Of a stretch of DNA of 64,000 bases, positions 5,266 to 64,000 are shown in pieces. The position numbers were made by a program, and so were the translations under genes. Under the pieces are notes generated by a model. The model ran no database searches. It worked only from the letters and a program-made list of their open reading frames with translations, and had not been told where the DNA came from. Numbering within the stretch: position 1 is the stretch's first letter; the number at the start of each line of letters is the position of its first letter. The DNA comes from an uncultured Ignavibacteria bacterium (lineage in GTDB: Bacteria > Bacteroidota > Ignavibacteria > Tepidaquicellales > OLB5), in the NCBI GenBank assembly GCA_937873695.1, contig CALMYL010000013.1:62001-126000 (forward strand), read 5' to 3'.

Positions 5266-5715
5266 TTATGCTCCGAATTGAGTCAGATGGTGATTTATGT
5301 GTTTCCATGTTATGATGTTCCATTCTTCAGGGGTAAGCTTGCCAAAGAAGGGATGCGGGTTTGAGCTTATTGCAGCGGGACCCTTTTCAGCAAGTGATGA
5401 AACTAATCTTATCAGTTTTTCCTTTTCGGCTTCAAGATCATAATTGCTTTTGGGTTTGAACTCATTGCTGGTTGGTACACCTTTTTTAAATGGTTTATCG
5501 CTTAATACTTCTTTTAGCGCCATTTTACCAAACAACTTTCCAATAAATCCGTGCTTCAGTTTAAGCTCACCCAATGATACCCTTATCGGCTCCTGCAAAT
5601 GGAATAGCATTCCTGCTGCATCCATTTTTCCCCATTGCGCTTTTGAATCACCGCTAATCTTCCTGATGCGTTCAATAATTTTCGTGTTTTCTTCTTTGTT
5701 GTACATGTAATTCAT
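5266..5715 (-). CDS. DUF1569 protein (DinB-like four-helix fold)
   Basis: A 149-residue soluble protein resembling DUF1569. It has an N-terminal helix pair, the H54-region MLFHLQEPIRVSLGE, the middle KPFKKGVPTSNEFKPKS, and the ending PHPFFGKLTPEEWNIITWKHINHHLTQFG. The three His clusters match the metal-binding positions of DinB/YfiT-like bundles. The start lies 3 nt downstream of the stop of the DinB gene 5719-6216, so the two are almost certainly one transcript. Substrate is unknown; many DinB-fold enzymes are thiol-dependent S-transferases. Confidence 0.75.
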   Translation of the reverse strand: MNYMYNKEENTKIIERIRKISGDSKAQWGKMDAAGMLFHLQEPIRVSLGELKLKHGFIGKLFGKMALKEVLSDKPFKKGVPTSNEFKPKSNYDLEAEKEKLIRLVSSLAEKGPAAISSNPHPFFGKLTPEEWNIITWKHINHHLTQFGA

Positions 5716-5718
5716 AAA

Positions 5719-6216
5719 TTAAGCGCCTACTCCTTTAGAAGGATCCCAGTTACCGAACTGTTTGCGCAAATGTACAATCTGCCCAATATGATATGCATTG
5801 TGAATTGTCATCTGTGTAAGCATTTCATACCACGAGGCACCGTATCCCGGAAAGGCTTCAGAGGAAAGATACCCGTCATCCGAATTATTTACTTTTTCAA
5901 TTATTGCAAGGGATATTTCGTTCAGTTTTTTTACAGATGAAAGCCAATTTTCTTCATCGGTACCTGAATCGGTGAAAGTGCTGCTGTTATCAATTTCCTC
6001 CTCCGGCGGCTTGCCGCCGTTAAGTCTGGTAAGCCATCTTCCGTTCCAGAAGATAAGGTGATTTACAATTCCCCACACACTATGATTACCGCTTGAATCT
6101 TTCTTTGAAGCATCTGATGCAGATAATCCTGCTGCAGCATCTGTAAAGGGCACGAACCAGTTTTTCTGATCATGTGCTGCTTTAAGCTGCTCTAATATAA
6201 TCTCTTTTGGTGACAA
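5719..6216 (-). CDS. DinB-family metal-binding protein
   Basis: A 165-residue DinB-superfamily protein. The metal site is suggested by the H in VWGIVNHLIFWNGRW and by HNAYHIGQIVHLRKQ near the C-terminus, the usual three-His arrangement. The start is TTG at 6216 (LSPKEIILEQ); there is no in-frame ATG nearby. It forms a pair with the DUF1569 gene downstream, and a third DinB-like gene lies at 40750-41307. Members bind divalent metal and some use bacillithiol or mycothiol as co-substrate; the reaction here is not known. Confidence 0.75.
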   Translation of the reverse strand: MSPKEIILEQLKAAHDQKNWFVPFTDAAAGLSASDASKKDSSGNHSVWGIVNHLIFWNGRWLTRLNGGKPPEEEIDNSSTFTDSGTDEENWLSSVKKLNEISLAIIEKVNNSDDGYLSSEAFPGYGASWYEMLTQMTIHNAYHIGQIVHLRKQFGNWDPSKGVGA

Positions 6217-53509: not shown

Positions 53510-56071
53510 ATGCGAAAAATTCTTCTTTTATTGCCCTCTATATTAGTCATTTTCGGGCTTTTGTTTGTTTCCGGTCTTTTTGAGAGCGGTTCAAATTTAG
53601 CTGAATTAAAATACAAAAAAAATGCTCCCGGTGACTGGTTCTATTACCAGCGTTCATACCCGGAAGGTGATATTCCATACGATAAGTACTTCGGTGCAAT
53701 GGAAGAAAAAAAGGTTATGGAACAGATGGATAATCCCACATCTGCACTTAACTGGACGCCTAACGGACCATATAATATAGGCGGAAGGATAACCGCAATA
53801 GCAGTAAATCCGTTAAATCCGGATATCATCATAATTGGGGCGGCAGCAGGCGGAATATTTAAAACAACAAATGGCGGGGCAAACTGGGTTGCTAAAACCG
53901 ATGAGTGGCCAAGTCTTTCTGTTGGTGCGCTGATAATGCATTCTTCAAATCCGAATATTATTTACTGCGGAACAGGTGAAGGCAACAGCGCAATTGATGT
54001 TTACCCCGGATTCGGTGTGCTCAAATCAACCGATATGGGCGATACGTGGAATCTTGTTGGCTTAACCGAAGCACTGCATATTCCTTCAATGGAAATACAT
54101 CCTTTAAACCCCAATATTGTATATGCATCTGTAATGGCATTTCGCTCGTTCGGGCAGAATAAAGGTATATACAAATCAACCAATGGCGGTGTTAACTGGG
54201 CAAGAGTTTTATTTGTATCTGATTCAACTTCAGGTGTCGATGTTAAAGTATCACCGGATGACCTGAATATTGTTTACGCCGCGATGTGGGAGCGTATCCG
54301 CACCCCACCATCAATATCCAAAACAGGTGGTATATCAAGCGGACTTTACCGCTCATCAAACGGTGGAGCCAACTGGCAGCAGCTTGGGGTTTCAAATGGA
54401 ATTCCCGCATCAAGCTCAACAACGGGCAGGATAAGCATTGCAGTTGCAAAATCGAACCCTGACTATGTTTATTCAATTTTTAAGACTACAACGGGTAACA
54501 ATATCAGTGGTATATATAAGTCAACCAATAAAGGACTCAACTGGACAACCATGTCCATGTCAGGAGTATCATCGTCGGGGTTTGATTGGTACTTTGGATT
54601 GATAGAAGTTGACCCAACTGATCCGAATAAAGTATATATAGGCAGTGTTGATATTTTCAGAACAACTAACGGTACAAGCTGGGTTAACTTAACCAACTCA
54701 TACAGCGGTACTTTTGACCAGCAGCATCCTGACCAGCATGTGCTGTGGATAAATCCTGCAAGTCCGAACAACTTAATTTGCGGAAATGACGGCGGCATTT
54801 TTGAAACATCAACAGGCAATGCGCCTTGGGTAAAAAGCTATGACCTTCCGATAACGCAATTCTATGCGACGAATATTGATTACCTTAATCCGCTGCGTAA
54901 GATAGGCGGCTCTCAGGATAACGGCTCTAAGATCACTTTTACCGGCGGAACAGATAACTGGGAAGTTATATACGGCGGTGATGGGTTTACCGCTCATGTT
55001 GATTATACTAACTCTAATATTATTTACTGTACATCGCAAAACGGTGGACTGGGCAGAAGCACAAATAACGGTGTATCATTTTCAGATATTACCGGAGGCT
55101 TAAGCGGCAGGTTCAACTGGTCAACTCCATATATTCTTGATAATGTAAATCCTGCTATACTTTACGTAGGCAGCCATATGCTCTTCCGTTCAACAAACCG
55201 CGGAACATCGTGGACAGCTATCAGTGGTGACCTTACACGCGGACCAAACGGTAGGCTTGGTACTATCACATGTATCACCAGCGCCGCTCTTGGAGGCGGT
55301 GAAAGGGTTATCTATACCGGTACAGATGATGCCAAAATTTCTGTAACAACAAACAGCGGAGTCAACTGGACCGATGTTACAGGTATATTGCCGCAAAGAT
55401 ACGTTACCGACGTAAGATGCGATAGCCGGAATCCCGCAATAGCTTACGTAACTCTCAGCGGATTTAATGTAGATGAAAAGAATACCCGCATTTACCGTAC
55501 AACAAATTACGGCGCTAGCTGGAACAATATTTCAGGTAATCTGCTTAACGTTCCTGCCAACTCCATTATAGTAGATGAAGCCCGCGATTCAGTGCTGTTT
55601 GTTGGCTGCGATGCAGGTGTATATTACACTACAAATCTTGGTGCAAGCTGGGCTATACTTGGCACGGGTTTACCCAATGCACCTGTGTTTGATATCAATT
55701 ATCATCAGGGCGCGCAAATACTTTGCGCGGGTACGCACGGCAGATCGATGTATGAAATAAGTACGGCAAATATACCTATCGGAATAATTGGCAGCAGCGA
55801 AGTTGCTGATAAGTTTTCATTGGGGCAGAATTACCCGAACCCGTTCAACCCCAAAACAAATATTAAATTCTCAATTCCCAAGGCTGATTACGTTAGATTA
55901 AAGGTTTATGATATCACAGGCAGCGAAGTTGCCGTGCTGCTGAATAAAAATATGCCTAAGGGTGAATATACATATGAATTCGACGCTTCAAATCTGTCAA
56001 GCGGTGTTTACTTCTACACGCTTAAAACAGAAAAATTCAATTCAACAAAGAAGATGATACTTGTGAAATAG
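53510..56071 (+). CDS. Secreted sortilin/sialidase-like beta-propeller protein with T9SS sorting domain
   Basis: An 853-residue protein. After a signal peptide there is a long BNR/VPS10-type propeller, with repeated GGIFKTTNGGANW, GVLKSTDMGDTW, GIYKSTNGGVNW and LYRSSNGGANWQQL blades, as in secreted xyloglucanase-like and adhesin proteins. The opening WTPNGPYNIGGRITAIAVNP is typical of FCB-group members. It ends with NYPNPFNPKTNIKFSI to KKMILVK. Probably a cell-surface or released binding protein; no catalytic acids could be assigned with confidence. Confidence 0.85.
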   Translation: MRKILLLLPSILVIFGLLFVSGLFESGSNLAELKYKKNAPGDWFYYQRSYPEGDIPYDKYFGAMEEKKVMEQMDNPTSALNWTPNGPYNIGGRITAIAVNPLNPDIIIIGAAAGGIFKTTNGGANWVAKTDEWPSLSVGALIMHSSNPNIIYCGTGEGNSAIDVYPGFGVLKSTDMGDTWNLVGLTEALHIPSMEIHPLNPNIVYASVMAFRSFGQNKGIYKSTNGGVNWARVLFVSDSTSGVDVKVSPDDLNIVYAAMWERIRTPPSISKTGGISSGLYRSSNGGANWQQLGVSNGIPASSSTTGRISIAVAKSNPDYVYSIFKTTTGNNISGIYKSTNKGLNWTTMSMSGVSSSGFDWYFGLIEVDPTDPNKVYIGSVDIFRTTNGTSWVNLTNSYSGTFDQQHPDQHVLWINPASPNNLICGNDGGIFETSTGNAPWVKSYDLPITQFYATNIDYLNPLRKIGGSQDNGSKITFTGGTDNWEVIYGGDGFTAHVDYTNSNIIYCTSQNGGLGRSTNNGVSFSDITGGLSGRFNWSTPYILDNVNPAILYVGSHMLFRSTNRGTSWTAISGDLTRGPNGRLGTITCITSAALGGGERVIYTGTDDAKISVTTNSGVNWTDVTGILPQRYVTDVRCDSRNPAIAYVTLSGFNVDEKNTRIYRTTNYGASWNNISGNLLNVPANSIIVDEARDSVLFVGCDAGVYYTTNLGASWAILGTGLPNAPVFDINYHQGAQILCAGTHGRSMYEISTANIPIGIIGSSEVADKFSLGQNYPNPFNPKTNIKFSIPKADYVRLKVYDITGSEVAVLLNKNMPKGEYTYEFDASNLSSGVYFYTLKTEKFNSTKKMILVK

Positions 56072-56145: not shown

Positions 56146-57135
56146 TTAATTTGATGAAAGTCTTAGCTGTGCAGAAGGCTCGATTGAGCCGAAAGAATTT
56201 GTCATATCCTGAACTGTACCGAAAGGATGGATATTTATACTCTTTTCAAATATCCACAGGTAAAACGGTTTGTTCAAAGCGGAACCCTGTTCATATCTTG
56301 GTTCAAGTGTTATTATAACATGGTAATCGTTATTCAGGCTCTGTATATCCGGAAGACCGCCTCCCGGGCAATTTGATTGCAGCCAGTCGTGACCCGGAAC
56401 GTTCCATATCAAACCGCCCGTAAGCTCGCATAGCTGGTTGTTATCCCTTAAGTTCGGGGAATCAAATCTGCCGATATTATATTTGAATGATGTGTTTGGA
56501 ATACTGACAACCCATGCCTGGTAGGTCCATTCCGCGGTATCGGGCAGTGCGGGGAGAGTTATCCCCGCAGTTGTGCCGTTTGTATCCTGTGTAAACCATA
56601 TACCTTTTTGATACTGAGATGAAGCTGTTCCTGTAGTTGGTGATGCGAGAAGAAATTTCCCCTGCGCTGAAGAAAATTGGGATGATACCGGAAGAATATC
56701 ACTGTAATGCATGGACAAATCAAAAACAAGCTCCGTGCCCTGCAGATGTTTTGCCCCGCCGAGAATTTTTATATTGCTGGGTATAGTATCGCTGTAACCG
56801 GGAGGCTGAATTGTGATTATAACATCATTTACATTATTGATATTGGCTATTTTGCCTAAATTTGGCGAAAATGCGCTCCCGGATGTATCGGTAATTTGAC
56901 CTGAGGCATTAATTGCGAACCTGCCAAGGCTGCGGTATGCGTTCTCACCATGATCAAGTCCGGTTTCAATACTGCCCCAGAGTTCATAAGTGCCTTCAAC
57001 ATTTTTATCAAGCTGTTGCAGCCTGTTTACTGTGAGTGTTCCTTTGTTCTGTGATGTCACAATACCTGAATCATCACCACAAGAATAAAAAACAATGGAA
57101 GCAAATAATACAAGTATAACGCTGAATTTTATCAT
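56146..57135 (-). CDS. Lipoprotein of unknown function
   Basis: A 329-residue protein from ATG 57135, where a lipoprotein signal begins (MIKFSVILVLFASIVFYSC, lipobox Cys at about 19). An in-frame ATG at 57168 lies just at a palindrome and would give an unusual leader. The body is beta-rich with aromatic strands (EGTYELWGSIETG, TAEWTYQAWVVSI), and VDV-like 'NNDYHVIITLEPRYEQG', reminiscent of anti-sigma or sugar-binding lipoproteins. No family assigned. Confidence 0.65.
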   Translation of the reverse strand: MIKFSVILVLFASIVFYSCGDDSGIVTSQNKGTLTVNRLQQLDKNVEGTYELWGSIETGLDHGENAYRSLGRFAINASGQITDTSGSAFSPNLGKIANINNVNDVIITIQPPGYSDTIPSNIKILGGAKHLQGTELVFDLSMHYSDILPVSSQFSSAQGKFLLASPTTGTASSQYQKGIWFTQDTNGTTAGITLPALPDTAEWTYQAWVVSIPNTSFKYNIGRFDSPNLRDNNQLCELTGGLIWNVPGHDWLQSNCPGGGLPDIQSLNNDYHVIITLEPRYEQGSALNKPFYLWIFEKSINIHPFGTVQDMTNSFGSIEPSAQLRLSSN

Positions 57136-57159
57136 CAAAAAAATTATCCTTAAATCATA

Positions 57160-57174
57160 AGACTTCAATAGTCT
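57160..57174. repeat. AGACTTCAATAGTCT palindrome
   Basis: The same 15-bp unit as at 32462-32476, in inverted orientation, preceded by CATA. It overlaps the alternative start codon region of the lipoprotein gene, supporting the downstream start. Confidence 0.6.
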
Positions 57175-57282
57175 AATGATGTTTTTTATAAATCGCTTTT
57201 TTGGAGTGCATCAACTGTGTTGATGCATGTATTGACCGCGTCTAAGCCGGGCATCCGCAATCAATGCAATCCAAAATAAAAC

Positions 57283-58776
57283 CTAATTCCCCAAACCCGG
57301 CGTGATACAAATACCCGCGGGGAAGGATGCCATTTCAATATCTTTAACCTTGTTATGACCCGCCCAGACATCAATTACAGCTGTAGTCCCCGGTGTTTTG
57401 CCTGCGCTTGGCGGATGGTGTACAAATCCGCCGGAAACAGATTCACACGTAACATATGCGTAATGCCCGTCAGCGGTGAAATCAATTTTATGCGGCTGCG
57501 CGCCAACATTTGATATTGTTTTAACAACCGTGTTAGTTGTCAGATCAATTACTGAAACTGAATTGGAGTTCCGGTTAGGCACGTAACACCACCTGCCATC
57601 AGGTGAAATTTCCTGCGCCAGCGGATTTAAACCGACCGGTATTGTTAAAATAAACGCCCTGCTCATCATATCAAACACACGCACGTCATTTGATTTGAGG
57701 CAGGTAATATACGCGTACTTATCATCAGGTGTGATTGATACCTGGTATGGAACAAAATTATTTGTACCGTTGCCGTTAGGCGGAACAGAAGGATCTACAG
57801 GGTAGATATCAATTATCTGCCCGGTTGAAGCCTGAATGAGATATAAAAACTCACTGCCCTCGGTAGCCATTAAAACATACTCTTCATTATGGGTGAGCCT
57901 TAAGCCGTGCGGTTTGGTCATACGGAATTCATCAATTACACGTGTAATGGTCATTGACTGTGTATCGAACTCCTTCATTTCTTTCTGCGCAAGTGTAGCG
58001 TCAAAATTGGTATACCATCCTTTTGTGCCGTCATTGGAAAGAATTATATGCGCAGGTGAATTACCAGCGAACATCCTGCCGACCCTTTCATATGTCATGG
58101 CGTCATATTTTTCAAGGTAACCTTCGGCTATAAGGCTTACATAAAAATACCTGCCCTGGTTATCAACTGTAATTACGTGCGGCGCGTCAAGCGGCTGTGT
58201 GGCATTATCCCTGCCGCCAACATCTATAAGCCTTACAAGGTGTTTGTTATCCAGATTCACGACCGCAACATAATCGCTTGCCTGGTTTGTAATAAAAGCT
58301 TTGTTCGTTATGTTCTGGAACGCAACCTGCCCGTTATCATTTTTTGCGCCCTGGTTGATCCAGTCAACAATTTTCATCAATTGATTTCCCGCAAGCGGCA
58401 TTCCATTAGTGTACGGCATCAATGCCTGCGGCATGAGCGGTTCTGAAAAAGGTGAAATGTTGGTATCAACACGGTTAATGTGCATTGTCATATGGCTCCA
58501 CCTGGCGTTGTAGGGAATTATTTCAGCGCCGAATGTTGAGCCTGTTAACATCAATGATTCCCAGCTTGAAAGATCAAGCCCTGCCTGACGGTTGGTTGAA
58601 TTATGACACCCGGGGAAGCTGCAATTCTGCGCTAAAATAGGCTGAATATCGCGAGTAAAGCTCACCGGTTCGCCAATTGCAGTGGGACTGCCGGAATCGC
58701 ACCCCATAAAATTGATTGAATTTAAGGCTAAAACTCCGCAAACTGCCGATAAAATGAAGATTATTCTCTTTTTCAA
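57283..58776 (-). CDS. Lipoprotein: cytochrome-c-like domain plus YVTN beta-propeller
   Basis: A 497-residue exported protein. After a lipoprotein signal (lipobox Cys in NFMGCDSG) comes a cytochrome-c-like domain: FTRDIQPILAQNCSFPGCHNS, with an unusual CX4CH haem motif (C-SFPG-CH), and a possible axial Met in PLMPQALMPY. The rest is a seven-bladed YVTN propeller (YVAVVNLDNKHLVRLIDVG, YAYITCLKSNDVRVFDM, CYVPNRNSNSVSVIDL). The combination is seen in extracytoplasmic electron-transfer or sensing proteins. Haem binding needs testing because of the motif spacing. Confidence 0.8.
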   Translation of the reverse strand: MKKRIIFILSAVCGVLALNSINFMGCDSGSPTAIGEPVSFTRDIQPILAQNCSFPGCHNSTNRQAGLDLSSWESLMLTGSTFGAEIIPYNARWSHMTMHINRVDTNISPFSEPLMPQALMPYTNGMPLAGNQLMKIVDWINQGAKNDNGQVAFQNITNKAFITNQASDYVAVVNLDNKHLVRLIDVGGRDNATQPLDAPHVITVDNQGRYFYVSLIAEGYLEKYDAMTYERVGRMFAGNSPAHIILSNDGTKGWYTNFDATLAQKEMKEFDTQSMTITRVIDEFRMTKPHGLRLTHNEEYVLMATEGSEFLYLIQASTGQIIDIYPVDPSVPPNGNGTNNFVPYQVSITPDDKYAYITCLKSNDVRVFDMMSRAFILTIPVGLNPLAQEISPDGRWCYVPNRNSNSVSVIDLTTNTVVKTISNVGAQPHKIDFTADGHYAYVTCESVSGGFVHHPPSAGKTPGTTAVIDVWAGHNKVKDIEMASFPAGICITPGLGN

Positions 58777-58948
58777 ACTCTGTTATTTACTTTTTTTGGA
58801 ATATAAGTGCTAAATGTATTTAATATTAATAATATATACAATGAACATATTTTGCGTGTTACTAACTGTAAACGGCTAAAATTACATATTAATTTCAGGT
58901 GCATGCCTGATACGGAAATCGATCATGAAGCCTTTGCTTTCATATCAT

Positions 58949-58968
58949 TTCCCCCTGAGGAGGGGGAA
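58949..58968. repeat. TTTCCCCCT-GAGG-AGGGGGAA hairpin
   Basis: A G/C-rich hairpin in the 284-nt gap 58777-59060, where no gene is seen. The related TTGTTGGTG hairpin follows at 59018-59041. Confidence 0.5.
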
Positions 58969-59017
58969 CACAAGGGGGTAATATTTTGATTTACAAATTG
59001 AACGATTAGAATTCCAC

Positions 59018-59041
59018 GTTGTTGGTGTTGTCACCAACAAC
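59018..59041. repeat. GTTGTTGGTG-TTGT-CACCAACAAC hairpin
   Basis: Ten-base perfect arms with a four-base loop, 20 nt past the stop of the T9SS gene on the minus strand. The same core is found at 29728-29769 and 63393-63423. Confidence 0.75.
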
Positions 59042-59060
59042 AAATTCAATTCTTAAAATC

Positions 59061-61184
59061 TCACTTCACCAACAGCATTTTCTTCGACTCAACAAACCCA
59101 TCACCGGTTAATACATAAAAATACACGCCGCTTGAAAAATTACTGCCGTCGAAATCAAATGAATATGTGCCGGGGATGAGGAAGTCATTCACGATAACTG
59201 AAACTTCTCTTCCCAGAATATCGTATATCTTAAGCGATGCGTTCATAGCTTTGGGAATATCGAACTTTATTTTCGTACTCGGATTAAACGGATTTGGATA
59301 ATTTTGGTGTAAATTGAAAGTGTGCGGTACAACATAACTTTGCGGCTCAACGCTGATTAGCACACCGCCACCCGTTGTGGTTTTGATAATTTGGCCGTAC
59401 GGACTCACAGCATAACCCGTGTTGTCATCTGTAAAATACAAACCATATGAACTGAAATAATTAACACAATATGTTGCAAACCAGTTTTCGCCGCCATTGG
59501 TAGTTTTGTACATGATGTTATTTTCTGCTGAAGCATAACCGGTCAAAGCAGAATAAAAATAAACTGCGGAAATTCTGTCCGGGAATCCCTGAATAGTCCA
59601 TGTATCACCCAAATTTGTTGTTCTGGCAATGACACCATTAAAGTTTACGGAGTTAAGTTTGTATCCTGCTACAAAAAAAGTATTATTCGGACTGAAACAT
59701 AAGTCTCTAACATTATACATAGAGTCTGGATAATAAGCAGTCCAGCTATTCCCACCATTCGTAGTTCTTTTAATAATTGCATTATCTAAGGCGTTTTTAT
59801 GACCTCCTGTAAAACCGGTTAAACTATTCAGAAATGAAACAACCTCATATTGACAAGAATCATTAACTGCAGGAGACCAGTTTAAACCTCCATTAATTGT
59901 TTTAATATTATAGCCCCATTTAGTAACTGCATAACCTGTATCTGCCGAAGGGAATGATATCCCGTACAAATGATCTGTTTGTCCTGTTTCTAGGATCTGC
60001 CAATTTACTCCTGCGTTTGTTGTACGCGCAAATCTGCCGCCATCAATACCTGCAAAACCTGTATTTGTGTCGGGGAAAACTATGCTGTTTACCCCTGTAT
60101 ATGTTATTAATCCCAAATAGTAAGGAGTCCAGTTTATTCCGTTATTTGTTGTCTTATAAATGAAGTTATTCCCGCCTGTGAAACCAGTATTAGAATTAAT
60201 AAAAGTCACATCATAAAAACTATCCATAAATCCGCTTGTCAAGTCTAACCAGTTAGTTCCGCCATTTGTGGTTCTGAACAAAAAATATCTATCCAGTCCT
60301 ATCCCATCATTAAAATTTTTAAGAAAAGTATTTTTGGATTTATAAGAATACGTCCAGTTATTGCCCTGATTGGTAGTCAGCCAGGTATCGCTGTTTCCTC
60401 TGATGTAACCGTTATTCTGATCGAAAAATTTTATTTGTCCGGCAGTACCATTTATAAAATTATATACAGTATCCCAGCCCGCCCCGCCGTTAGTGGTTTT
60501 TAACAAGAGGTTTCTGTTCGCAAAAGTTGTTACGAAACCTGTTTGAGCATTCAGGAAATATACCCCATTTGTCCTGAACCTGAAATTTACGGGAATCGTA
60601 TCCCATGTTATACCGCCGTTAGTAGTTTTATGTATCCTGCTGCTGCTAAATACAGTTGGTTTGTATCCCACTACAAAACCAATATTGTTTGTTGGGAAGT
60701 GAAGTGAATAAAATATGTTATCAGGATAAGCTGTAAGGCTCAAGTTCCAGCTCTCACCAAGATCATTGCTGATATAAACTTTATTATTTTTTAAGCCGTA
60801 AAGTGAAATTTGAGGTGAAGTACTGAAATCATTTACAGAATCAACCGGCGCGGGTATATATCTCCAGTTATTTCCGCCGTTGGTTGTTTTTAAAATTCCG
60901 TTGGTTGAATTGGAAAATCCGGTCAGCTCATTAATAAAAATTATCGATTCACCGCATTCTTTATTTTGCATTACCGAGAACGATACCCCGTTATCTGTAG
61001 ATTTCATCATTGTGCCGCCATAACCTGATACATACACGATGTTATTTCCGGCATATTCTGCATCAGTTAAATAATTTCCCTGCGGCAAAGGATTAAGCCA
61101 GAACCATCCATCCTGTGAAAAAGATTTACAATTAATTAATATTAAAAGAAATAAGAAAAATTTAAGTTTTTTAAAAATATTCAT
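59061..61184 (-). CDS. T9SS Ycf48/BNR-like beta-propeller protein, copy B
   Basis: A 707-residue secreted protein. The signal peptide (about 1-24) is followed by a propeller made of repeated TTNGGxNW blades (TNGILKTTNGGNNWRYIP, TKWGYNIKTINGGLNWSPAV), the Ycf48/photosystem II assembly-factor-like type common in surface proteins of this group. The C-terminal sorting module runs from NYPNPFNPSTKIKFDI to MLLVK. Its ATG overlaps the stop of the upstream paralogue (61181-61184). Its N- and C-terminal coding segments are nearly identical in DNA to those of that paralogue, while the middle differs strongly. Confidence 0.85.
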   Translation of the reverse strand: MNIFKKLKFFLFLLILINCKSFSQDGWFWLNPLPQGNYLTDAEYAGNNIVYVSGYGGTMMKSTDNGVSFSVMQNKECGESIIFINELTGFSNSTNGILKTTNGGNNWRYIPAPVDSVNDFSTSPQISLYGLKNNKVYISNDLGESWNLSLTAYPDNIFYSLHFPTNNIGFVVGYKPTVFSSSRIHKTTNGGITWDTIPVNFRFRTNGVYFLNAQTGFVTTFANRNLLLKTTNGGAGWDTVYNFINGTAGQIKFFDQNNGYIRGNSDTWLTTNQGNNWTYSYKSKNTFLKNFNDGIGLDRYFLFRTTNGGTNWLDLTSGFMDSFYDVTFINSNTGFTGGNNFIYKTTNNGINWTPYYLGLITYTGVNSIVFPDTNTGFAGIDGGRFARTTNAGVNWQILETGQTDHLYGISFPSADTGYAVTKWGYNIKTINGGLNWSPAVNDSCQYEVVSFLNSLTGFTGGHKNALDNAIIKRTTNGGNSWTAYYPDSMYNVRDLCFSPNNTFFVAGYKLNSVNFNGVIARTTNLGDTWTIQGFPDRISAVYFYSALTGYASAENNIMYKTTNGGENWFATYCVNYFSSYGLYFTDDNTGYAVSPYGQIIKTTTGGGVLISVEPQSYVVPHTFNLHQNYPNPFNPSTKIKFDIPKAMNASLKIYDILGREVSVIVNDFLIPGTYSFDFDGSNFSSGVYFYVLTGDGFVESKKMLLVK

Positions 61185-63295
61185 TTTATCAACACCATCC
61201 TTCTGGATTCTACAAACCCTTCACCGGTTAATACATAAAAATACACGCCGCTTGAAAAATTACTGCCGTCGAAATCAAATGAATATGTGCCGGGGATGAG
61301 GAAGTCATTCACGATAACTGAAACTTCTCTTCCCAGAATATCGTATATCTTAAGCGATGCGTTCATAGCTTTGGGAATATCGAACTTTATTTTCGTACTC
61401 GGATTAAACGGATTTGGATAATTTTGGAATAAAGTGAAAGTATGAGGTACAATATAACTTTGCGGCTCAACGCTTATGAGCACACCGCCACCTGTTGTGG
61501 TTTTGATAATTTGGCCGTTAAAACCTGCTCCGTAGCCTGTAATGCTATCAGTGAAATAGAGACTTTCACTATTTGAAGCATTTATACAATAAGTACGATA
61601 CCAATTATCTCCTCTGTTAGTAGTTTTGTAAATTGAGTTATTTGAAGAAGCTGCATAACCTATACCGGTGGTAGGGAAGTGAATTGAAAATATTGAAGAT
61701 GGGAAAATATTATAGCTCCAGCTCAAACCATAGTCGGTAGATCTGTATATTACTCCTTTACTGCTGTATTTATAACCTGCTGCATATATATAATTATCTT
61801 CTGTACAAAAAAGTTCTTGAACAACCATTATAGAGTCCAATTGAGTGACTGTCCAGCTATTTCCGCGATTTGTTGTTTTCAATATTTTACCAATACCACC
61901 ATAAGAACCTGAAGCACTGGCAAAACCGGTAATATTGTTTACAAATTTTAAATCCTGAAATGCGCCATGCAGTAATCTTTCCATGTAAATCCAATTTACC
62001 CCGCCATTAATAGTCTTATAGAAAAAACCCTCGTAAGTTACTAAATATCCTGTATCAGCTGATGGAAAAGATATTACTGGTGATGAATAATTTTGACCAA
62101 TATAATATATATTCCAGTTCAAACCGCAATTTGTTGTCTTTGCAATTTTCCCCGGATTTATTGCTGCATAACCGGTATTGTTATCAATAAATGTCAATTC
62201 ATCAACAAAAGGTCCGGCGATGCTGTCCAGTCCCAAATAGTAATCAGTCCAGTTTATGCCCCTATTGGTAGTTTTATAAATTTTGTTTTTGCCGCTGATA
62301 AATCCGGTTAATTGGTTCAGGAAAGTAACAGAAGTAAAATTATCATATATTCCATTAGTAATTGAATACCATGTGGTACCCTGGTTGGTGGTTCTGTAAA
62401 AAAAGTTTGTTTTTTCAATATCAAAACCAATGCCTTCATTTAAATTTTTCAGAAAAGTATTGTGTGTCGTATTTACAGTATTCCAGTTTAATCCGCTATC
62501 TGTTGTAGTAACTATAGAATATGGACCTTTAATATAACCTGTGTTATTATCAAAAAATATTAACTTTTGTGGAATAAAAGGGATGGCTGATATTGTATCC
62601 CATGTTAAACATCCATTACTGGTTTTAATTAATAAAGACCTGCTTGAGAGAATCAAAGCCAATCCTTTTTGTTGATCAAAAAAATACATATTAGGTATAT
62701 TGTATTTAAGACTAGTGTTAATACTATTCCAATTTAATCCGCTATTTGTGGTCTTATAGATGCTGCATACATTTGTGTTTGTTCTAAAACCGGAACAATA
62801 ACCTGTGTTTTGGTCAATAAAATATATAAATGATAAGAATTCATCCAGATAAGCTATTAAACTTGAATTCCAGCTTTCCCCTAAATCCATGCTTAAAAAA
62901 ACTTCATCGTTTCTAATCCCATATATCAAATTATTGCTGTGATAACCCATAACAGAATCAACCGGCGCGGGTATATACCGCCAGTTATTTCCGCCGTTAG
63001 TGGTCTTTAATATTCCATTGGTTGAATTGGAAAATCCTGTCAGCTCATTAATAAAAATTATCGATTCACCGCATTCTTTATTTTGCATTACCGAGAACGA
63101 TACCCCGTTATCTGTAGATTTCATCATTGTGCCGCCATAACCTGATACATACACGATGTTATTTCCGGCATATTCTGCATCAGTTAAATAATTTCCCTGC
63201 GGCAAAGGATTAAGCCAGAACCAGCCATCCTGAGAATGGACATTTAATGAAAATGATAAACAAATTAAAGAAAGGATAAAATATAATTTTTTCAT
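61181..63295 (-). CDS. T9SS Ycf48/BNR-like beta-propeller protein, copy A
   Basis: A 704-residue paralogue of the preceding protein, with a different signal peptide (MKKLYFILSLICLSFSLNVHS) but then the same QDGWFWLNPLPQGNYLTDAE segment and about 90 shared residues, a divergent propeller centre, and the same C-terminal sorting module ending RMVLIK. The two genes are translationally coupled (ATGA). The conserved ends and variable centre suggest duplication with later gene conversion or shuffling. A surface or released binding protein is likely; the ligand is unknown. Confidence 0.85.
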   Translation of the reverse strand: MKKLYFILSLICLSFSLNVHSQDGWFWLNPLPQGNYLTDAEYAGNNIVYVSGYGGTMMKSTDNGVSFSVMQNKECGESIIFINELTGFSNSTNGILKTTNGGNNWRYIPAPVDSVMGYHSNNLIYGIRNDEVFLSMDLGESWNSSLIAYLDEFLSFIYFIDQNTGYCSGFRTNTNVCSIYKTTNSGLNWNSINTSLKYNIPNMYFFDQQKGLALILSSRSLLIKTSNGCLTWDTISAIPFIPQKLIFFDNNTGYIKGPYSIVTTTDSGLNWNTVNTTHNTFLKNLNEGIGFDIEKTNFFYRTTNQGTTWYSITNGIYDNFTSVTFLNQLTGFISGKNKIYKTTNRGINWTDYYLGLDSIAGPFVDELTFIDNNTGYAAINPGKIAKTTNCGLNWNIYYIGQNYSSPVISFPSADTGYLVTYEGFFYKTINGGVNWIYMERLLHGAFQDLKFVNNITGFASASGSYGGIGKILKTTNRGNSWTVTQLDSIMVVQELFCTEDNYIYAAGYKYSSKGVIYRSTDYGLSWSYNIFPSSIFSIHFPTTGIGYAASSNNSIYKTTNRGDNWYRTYCINASNSESLYFTDSITGYGAGFNGQIIKTTTGGGVLISVEPQSYIVPHTFTLFQNYPNPFNPSTKIKFDIPKAMNASLKIYDILGREVSVIVNDFLIPGTYSFDFDGSNFSSGVYFYVLTGEGFVESRRMVLIK

Positions 63296-63392
63296 AACAA
63301 ATTACATTAGGTTATTTTTAACATATTAAATTAATAGTATATTAACAATACAATTTTCAGAAATTATTAATTTGCCATTCATTTGATATTTG

Positions 63393-63486
63393 TTGTTGGT
63401 GACGCTACGCTAAACACCAACAAAGGGGTAATTTTCAAAAATTATTAATTTACCCATTTTCATCGGATGACTTGAAGTCATTCGAT
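63393..63486. repeat. Two hairpins between copy A and dxr
   Basis: TTGTTGGTG/CACCAACAA (63393-63401 and 63415-63423), then ATCGGATGACTT-G-AAGTCATTCGAT (63462-63486, one G:T pair). The first is flanked by imperfect direct repeats of TTCanAAATTATTAATTTnCC (about 63356-63378 and 63434-63454). The 293-nt gap 63296-63588 holds no gene; the dxr promoter must lie near its right end. Confidence 0.7.
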
Positions 63487-63588
63487 AAATTTTCACAATT
63501 CCACTCATTTTCCGCAGGTTTCCTTGCCCCAAAATTAGCATACTAACTTTCATAAATAAACGCTAAATTACCAAATATATACGTTATA

Positions 63589-64000
63589 ATGAAGAATATC
63601 GCTGTTTTAGGCTCTACAGGTTCAATAGGAAGAAATACGCTCGAAGTTGTCAGAAATCTGAACAGGAACGGATATCCCGTTTCGGTAAAATATATTTCGG
63701 CTAACTCAAATGTTGAGCTTCTTTCAGAGCAGATTGAAGAATTTAAGCCAAAAGCCGCGGTAATTTTCAATGAAACAAGCTTTAATGATCTTAAGTCACG
63801 TTCTTTAAATCATAAATGCGAAATTCTGTGTGGTCAGCAGGGCATCAACGAAATTGCCTCACGGGATGATTTTGAGCTTGTTGTAAATGCGCTGGTTGGT
63901 TTCAGCGGACTTATACCTACAATAGAAGCCATTAAGCATGGCAAAGATATAGCGCTTGCCAATAAGGAATCGCTGGTTGTAGCAGGGGAGCTTATTTATT
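63589..64000 (+). CDS. dxr: 1-deoxy-D-xylulose 5-phosphate reductoisomerase (partial, runs off the right edge)
   Basis: The first 137 codons of Dxr, the second enzyme of the MEP isoprenoid pathway, which makes 2-C-methyl-D-erythritol 4-phosphate with NADPH. The NADPH motif GSTGSIGRNTLEVV follows the start (MKNIAVLGSTG). Further on are ALVGFSGLIPTIEAIKHGKDIALANKESLVVAGELI, the highly conserved KES region. The remaining two thirds, with the metal site, are outside the window. A long opposite-strand frame at 63543-63770 is an antisense shadow. Confidence 0.93.
   Translation, partial: MKNIAVLGSTGSIGRNTLEVVRNLNRNGYPVSVKYISANSNVELLSEQIEEFKPKAAVIFNETSFNDLKSRSLNHKCEILCGQQGINEIASRDDFELVVNALVGFSGLIPTIEAIKHGKDIALANKESLVVAGELIY

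Follow-up and report, generated by a model that had tools for sequence, protein, structure and literature searches.

In a stretch of 64,000 nucleotides (nt) from an uncultured Ignavibacteria bacterium (contig CALMYL010000013.1, positions 62,001 to 126,000; the whole of it is called the window in what follows), two adjacent genes, copy 1 (61181-63295, 704 amino acids) and copy 2 (59061-61184, a paralogue of 707 amino acids with the same architecture), encode YCF48/BNR-type beta-propellers with a signal peptide and a type A sorting domain of the type IX secretion system (T9SS); all features of the pair lie on the minus strand, and copy 1 is the first of the two. The copies are nearly identical towards both ends and widely divergent in the centre, and it is very probable that they form an old tandem of T9SS-exported propellers under segmental concerted evolution. 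The evidence is drawn from the genome itself (a draft assembly of 30 contigs and 3.78 Mb), from 13 genomes of the genus and from 44 genomes of the order, the genome under study being included in both sets.

Identity along the two genes

The preliminary description of this locus had singled out two tracts shared by the copies without a single difference, and both are as it reported, silent sites included: 207 of 207 bases in the C-terminal region (61221-61427 in copy 1, 59101-59307 in copy 2, at an offset of 2120) and 185 of 185 in the N-terminal region (63039-63223 and 60922-61106, at an offset of 2117). The C-terminal tract is the core of the T9SS sorting domain, from the NYPNPF motif onwards; the N-terminal tract, exact as it is, spans just the first ~1.5 blades (blade 1 and the start of blade 2). 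The wide difference of the signal peptides and of the centres, equally claimed, is also found. Along the codon alignment, identity is not uniform: the end segments are identical at 98% and 97% of nt (95% of third positions in each), the centres (61519-62951 in copy 1, 59399-60834 in copy 2) mostly at 53-57% (36-43% of third positions) with a last block at 63% (48% of third positions), the signal peptides at 56% and the last 12 codons at 69%. In the centre, silent sites are saturated between the two copies.

In a GENECONV-like shuffle test (1326 variable columns, eight genes, 28 gene pairs) the longest run shared by the pair comprises 94 consecutive variable sites, a length that 0 of 2000 shuffles reach, pairwise or globally. 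The 18 codons immediately inside the N-terminal tract are conserved family-wide (76-96% nt in the pairs compared) and are not necessarily the product of additional conversion. In a draft assembly, an assembler that pops bubbles might raise an identity of ~99% to 100%; the conclusion that recombination has acted is independent of this last percent, because the orthologue level at the ends is just 82-86%.

Caps, segment trees and the origin of the centres

The propeller gene, or the pair, adjoins dxr. At this locus, contig C28 (from the G005 bin) and G011 likewise have a tandem, and G002, G008 and G009 have one gene each; the 4-nt overlap between the stop of copy 1 and the start of copy 2 (61181-61184) recurs identically in C28 (L081) and G011 (L084), and suggests joint transcription and coupled translation of the two copies. 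The shared ends sit inside copy-specific caps, that is, the signal peptide and the last 12 codons, and these caps follow gene position, with 86-93% nt identity for the signal peptides and 86-94% for the tails to the same-position copies of C28 and G011. In particular, the copy-1 type signal peptide (63230-63295) is 91% identical to that of C28 copy 1 and 86% to that of G011 copy 1, the copy-2 type signal peptide (61113-61184) 93% and 89% to those of the respective copies 2; the copy-1 type tail, including the stop codon (61181-61219), is 86-89% identical to copy 1 of the relatives, and the copy-2 type tail (59061-59099) 92-94% to copy 2. In the signal-peptide tree the approximately unbiased (AU) test rejects a clade of copies 1 and 2 of this genome (p = 2.6e-45). 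Because the caps match those of the relatives by gene position, the tandem is older than the identity of its ends; the ends were therefore homogenised later, by homologous recombination, and are not relics of a recent duplication. The 77 nt upstream of copy 1 (63296-63372) are 95-96% identical between C28 and G011 and between C28 and this genome; dxr, beside them, is only ~81-82% alike in the same comparisons.

The single gene of G009 has a signal peptide and N-terminal part of copy-1 type and a tail of copy-2 type. It has been considered that the single genes of G002 and G009 could be tandems collapsed through crossing over; alternatively, the single gene would be the older state and new caps would have formed at the junction, from which the same pattern is expected. 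In the two-contig assembly of G009, the N-terminal part of this gene carries a frameshift (L085, ~5640-6060), either a real loss or a sequencing error.

The segments of the two genes have conflicting histories. In the tree of the N-terminal segment (alignment columns 26-100) copies 1 and 2 of this genome group as sisters (support 92/87), and the AU test rejects the grouping of copy 2 with G011 copy 2 (p = 1.8e-5); in the tree of the centre (columns 119-600) copy 2 and G011 copy 2 form a clade with support 100/100, and the pair of this genome is rejected (p = 8e-62); in the sorting-domain tree (columns 640-716) the grouping of copy 2 with G011 copy 2 is again rejected (p = 3.8e-4). By trees and AU tests, the ends thus cluster by genome and the middle by orthologue, with a weak fork at the C-terminal end. 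Third positions of copy 2 and G011 copy 2 agree in 52 of 74 and 60 of 91 cases at the two ends and in 431 of 506 in the centre (p = 0.0025 and 3.9e-5). The interior of copy 1, for its part, is not of the copy-1 lineage (AU p = 0.003 for the N-terminal part, 6e-4 for the DNA of the centre and 0.006 for the latter with G009 included).

The centres are mosaics that have been exchanged between species and are in places more alike than the species background. This background is 88-93% in five flanking genes and 76% in a sixth between this genome and G011, and 72-81% and 63%, respectively, between G011 and G002. The centre of copy 2 is orthologous to that of G011 copy 2 (88-96% nt) and blockwise 88-93% identical to the single gene of G002. 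In the comparison of G002 with G011 copy 2, third positions are identical in 195 of 237 cases in block 101-345 (p = 5e-21) and in 53 of 65 in block 561-625 (p = 9e-7), the corresponding count for the flanking genes, with the sixth omitted, being 1223 of 2373, and the block between the two stands at 64% nt; between C28 copy 1 and G011 copy 1, identity switches between ~97% and ~60% along the gene. In windows of 50 codons the standard deviation of identity is 4.0-16.9 for the propeller pairs and up to 9.6 for the other flanking genes; a control gene with propeller and sorting tail (53510-56071) is fairly even, at 2.4-5.0. The ratio of non-synonymous to synonymous substitution rates (dN/dS) is 0.05-0.30 in orthologous segments, which are under purifying selection; the diversity therefore comes from replacement by distant alleles and not from rapid point change. 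The gene conversion or cassette exchange proposed in the preliminary description holds in two respects, since segment trees, AU tests and shuffling indicate that recombination made the ends identical, and the centres have been exchanged blockwise between the loci of different species. Apart from the propeller locus, a T9SS gene of G011 and one of G009 (L173, 9742-11223, and L186, 14535-16235) are 96-97% identical, and the genes flanking the propeller locus of these genomes are at 76-82%; this likeness is possibly another exchange between species.

As to mechanism, homologous recombination, presumably of the RecA type, would act where the copies are still alike, namely in the N-terminal blades and the sorting domain, one copy overwriting the other; the centres would be too divergent for it, so that identical ends and unrelated middles would reinforce each other. 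Ends and conserved blades might in turn serve as homology arms for swapping in centres from other strains or species, foreign DNA taken up by the cell being the probable source. Most economically, copy 1 would have kept its own signal peptide and tail and received everything between them (N-terminal blades, centre and sorting domain) from an allele of copy-2 type; two separate short conversion tracts would be about equally likely. One ComEC-family protein is encoded in the genome.

Several observations weigh against segmental concerted evolution of an old tandem, or narrow what can be claimed for it. The fork joining the pair of this genome in the sorting-domain tree is weak (support 76/36); the branch leading to copy 1 of this genome is long, and in the protein tree of the centre its grouping with the copy-1 clade is rejected just at p = 0.026, and no longer so when G009 is included (p = 0.068). 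The conversion may have run in either direction, since G011 copy 2 has a 5' end that is in turn most similar to C28. The evidence of exchange is between species and between loci, recent exchange within a population lying beyond it, and the ComEC gene says little on competence, a control search having matched 10 of 14 genomes. Furthermore, the assemblies are drafts throughout: G011 copy 1 is split across two contig ends, which agree in 46 of 46 overlapping codons, and C28 holds a second dxr (~81-82% alike), from which it follows that C28 comes from a different species than the rest of the G005 bin; it is used here solely as a relative, not as G005.

Alternative explanations

That the ends are kept alike by purifying selection or codon constraint alone is scarcely credible; they are indeed conserved at the protein level across the family, but third positions of the ends agree at 95% between copies 1 and 2, versus 66-70% with the G011 orthologue and 55-77% within the pairs of C28 and G011, and on these grounds protein-level selection alone is rejected. 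A recent duplication of the whole gene, after which one of the two acquired its centre from elsewhere, would yield identical ends and a foreign centre; it would not yield signal peptides and tails which differ within the genome (56% and 69%) and yet match the same-position copies of C28 and G011 at 86-94%, and the tandem, with the same overlap, is already present in both. This very improbable course is rejected by the caps, which follow gene position. An artefact of assembly, in which similar tracts were collapsed and then written out twice, is suggested by the draft state of the 30 contigs and by tract lengths near the length of short reads; it is nevertheless very unlikely, given that differing positions are retained right up to the tract edges, that two further assemblies show the same tandem and that the likeness of neighbouring sorting domains described below extends across many loci and genomes.

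A dedicated diversification system, in which the ends would be a constant frame for export and anchoring and the centres would be swapped as cassettes from a repertoire, varying a binding or antigenic surface, is the reading towards which the preliminary description leaned, and it appears rather unlikely. Between species the centres do vary as whole blocks with the ends kept, and in the blades, counted from the Asp-box tryptophan, variability is high from +8 to +12 and at -13 (mean pairwise identity 0.21-0.46), whereas the motif positions -7, -6, -5, -3 and 0 are conserved (0.77-1.00); -2 and +1, which belong to the motif or adjoin it, vary just as much (0.28 and 0.29), there is no clear signal of one face, and the profile is a weak hint of a single variable blade face that is not counted as support. 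A search for further cassettes with the same ends had been suggested; in DNA searches of the genome with each end, just the two copies exceed 90% over the full query, the rest being partial; the nearest other paralogues are at 39% amino acid identity, the 4-nt overlap is operon-like rather than that of one expressed gene with silent copies, and the dN/dS values given above also speak against such a system. Systems of the vls or pilS kind consist of an expression site and silent cassettes; this arrangement is rejected here, neither end having another match in the genome that passes 90% along the whole query. The copy-1 centre is without a close relative in the 44 genomes of the order, in which a DNA search for a donor gave only short matches or matches of 65-70%, and no inverted repeats of at least 30 nt were found in 57000-64000. 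"Constant frame, variable centre" remains a fair description of the pair; an antigenic or ligand-switching system is not supported.

A diversity-generating retroelement acting on the pair was also rejected, since the only RVT_1 match of the genome lies on another contig; no 14-mer of the retroelement template occurs in the window. The locus L166 of this genome (G000:C20, ~145.4 kb; 436-515, 901-980, 1090-1169 and 1147-2229) encodes a reverse transcriptase in which the motif IGNYLSQ occurs, and has a single template repeat as well as two variable repeats in two tandem genes. Mismatches fall on template adenines in 11 of 14 and 18 of 21 cases, the other six lying at the margins of the 80 nt that were compared; it is likely a diversity-generating retroelement, a name given partly on the strength of its motif.

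Exported propellers, neighbouring sorting domains and known systems

Both proteins score above the cut-off of 27 for PF14870 (60.9 and 73.3 bits; E = 2.6e-20 for copy 1 and 1.5e-16 for copy 2), and the sorting domain is recognised by PF18962 (cut-off 27; 38.8 and 34.6 bits; E = 2.4e-8 for copy 1 and 1.2e-9 for copy 2) and by TIGR04183 (cut-off 23; 44.8 and 38.5 bits). An orthologue of Ycf48 proper (NF010237) was rejected, the equivalog cut-off being 326 bits and the two proteins reaching 68 and 77. An AlphaFold model of copy 1, built with 10 sequences, has a propeller fold (pLDDT 74.7, pTM 0.62) and resembles, among structures of the Protein Data Bank, the multi-propeller proteins BT4673 (ectodomain), GH74 xyloglucanases, PorZ and YCF48, with a target TM score of 0.68-0.75 over ~300 residues for YCF48 and a TM score of 0.55-0.58 for PorZ. 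Fold and PF14870 match are shared with propellers of YCF48 and PorZ type; here, however, the protein is a longer Asp-box protein ending in a T9SS sorting tail. The genome encodes the T9SS pore protein SprA (SprA_N, PF14349; E = 1.5e-40 in a frame of 2208 amino acids), with matches in 0 of 14 control genomes, SprA being the only translocon component searched for; both propellers are predicted to be exported to the surface, where the variable centre may have a binding role.

The likeness of sorting domains depends on neighbourhood well beyond this pair. In this genome, 17 clusters were chosen, with 62 adjacent same-strand pairs of open reading frames; a 30-codon block with 75% identity or more occurs in 27 of these pairs, and five share an uninterrupted identical run of 200 nt or longer; at seven loci of relatives, such a block is found in 3 of 13 pairs. 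Within this genome, a third-position identity of 0.7 or more in the sorting domain is seen for 6 of 38 pairs of adjacent genes, 3 of 93 pairs from the same cluster and 0 of 2215 from different clusters; for 16 clusters of relatives the corresponding figures are 6 of 39, 2 of 83 and 0 of 232. Between genomes this value is reached by 1 of 1726 pairs, an apparent orthologue. Among adjacent pairs with saturated bodies, a value of at least 0.6 is seen in 9 of 32 (this genome) and 12 of 39 (relatives), compared with 2 of 2215 and 1 of 232 for other-cluster pairs of the same genome. Pairs of sorting domains are not independent, and rank tests on them are a guide only.

Two adjacent T9SS genes of this genome (G000:C17, L125, 10304-11563 and 11702-13825) share 201 identical bases of the sorting domain; their bodies are unrelated, aligning at just 42% of nt and 29% of third positions. 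Tandem arrays of genes of ~410-480 residues are seen in L132 (5257-7921, G000:C5) and L133 (2144-8289, G000:C21), where perfectly identical stretches of 507, 419 and 336 nt break off abruptly within genes.

A broader and more tentative reading is that the sorting domain, together with the conserved first blades, might be a recombination arm shared by a very large set of exported genes, making up an open system for shuffling surface proteins. It is conceivable, with the same reserve, that neighbouring cargo genes, even those with unrelated bodies, continually copy the sorting domain from each other and, just as speculatively, that species exchange new cargo bodies, which are inserted between ends that stay constant. 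The likeness of sorting domains among neighbours with unrelated bodies is the part that specialists may find new.

The closest precedents appear to be the babA/babB and homA/homB genes of Helicobacter. As in the former, ends are nearly identical and the middle is divergent within one genome; babA/babB (and babC) of Helicobacter pylori, however, are outer membrane adhesins at separate loci with phase-variable CT repeats, whereas here the bacterium is uncultured, the genes encode T9SS cargo propellers in tandem, and their centres have been exchanged across species. In homA/homB of the same organism, the 3' segment clusters by strain, indicating concerted evolution, and the middle forms distinct allele types (PMC2795765); in that case it is only the 3' segment that is concerted, while both ends are in the present pair, with copy-specific caps outside them. 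In Porphyromonas gingivalis, surface proteins including gingipains and other T9SS cargo are diversified via domain rearrangement and allelic exchange, the mosaic departing from the strain tree (PMC5266723); that case concerns modular adhesin domains of proteases in one species, and the present one a pair of tandem genes, their propeller blades and an exchange that crosses species boundaries in a genus. In the open-access literature on T9SS or Ignavibacteria, a search for gene conversion or concerted evolution listed no account of such a case.

The architecture of homogenised ends and diverged middle of the Helicobacter adhesins is thus found in uncultured Ignavibacteria and extended to T9SS cargo. 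Trees or dates obtained from whole T9SS genes, or from their ends, would blend several histories, and this should serve as a warning. The dependence of sorting-domain likeness on neighbourhood, seen in two separate sets of loci, would offer a simple reason why the export tag stays uniform despite the divergence of the bodies that carry it.

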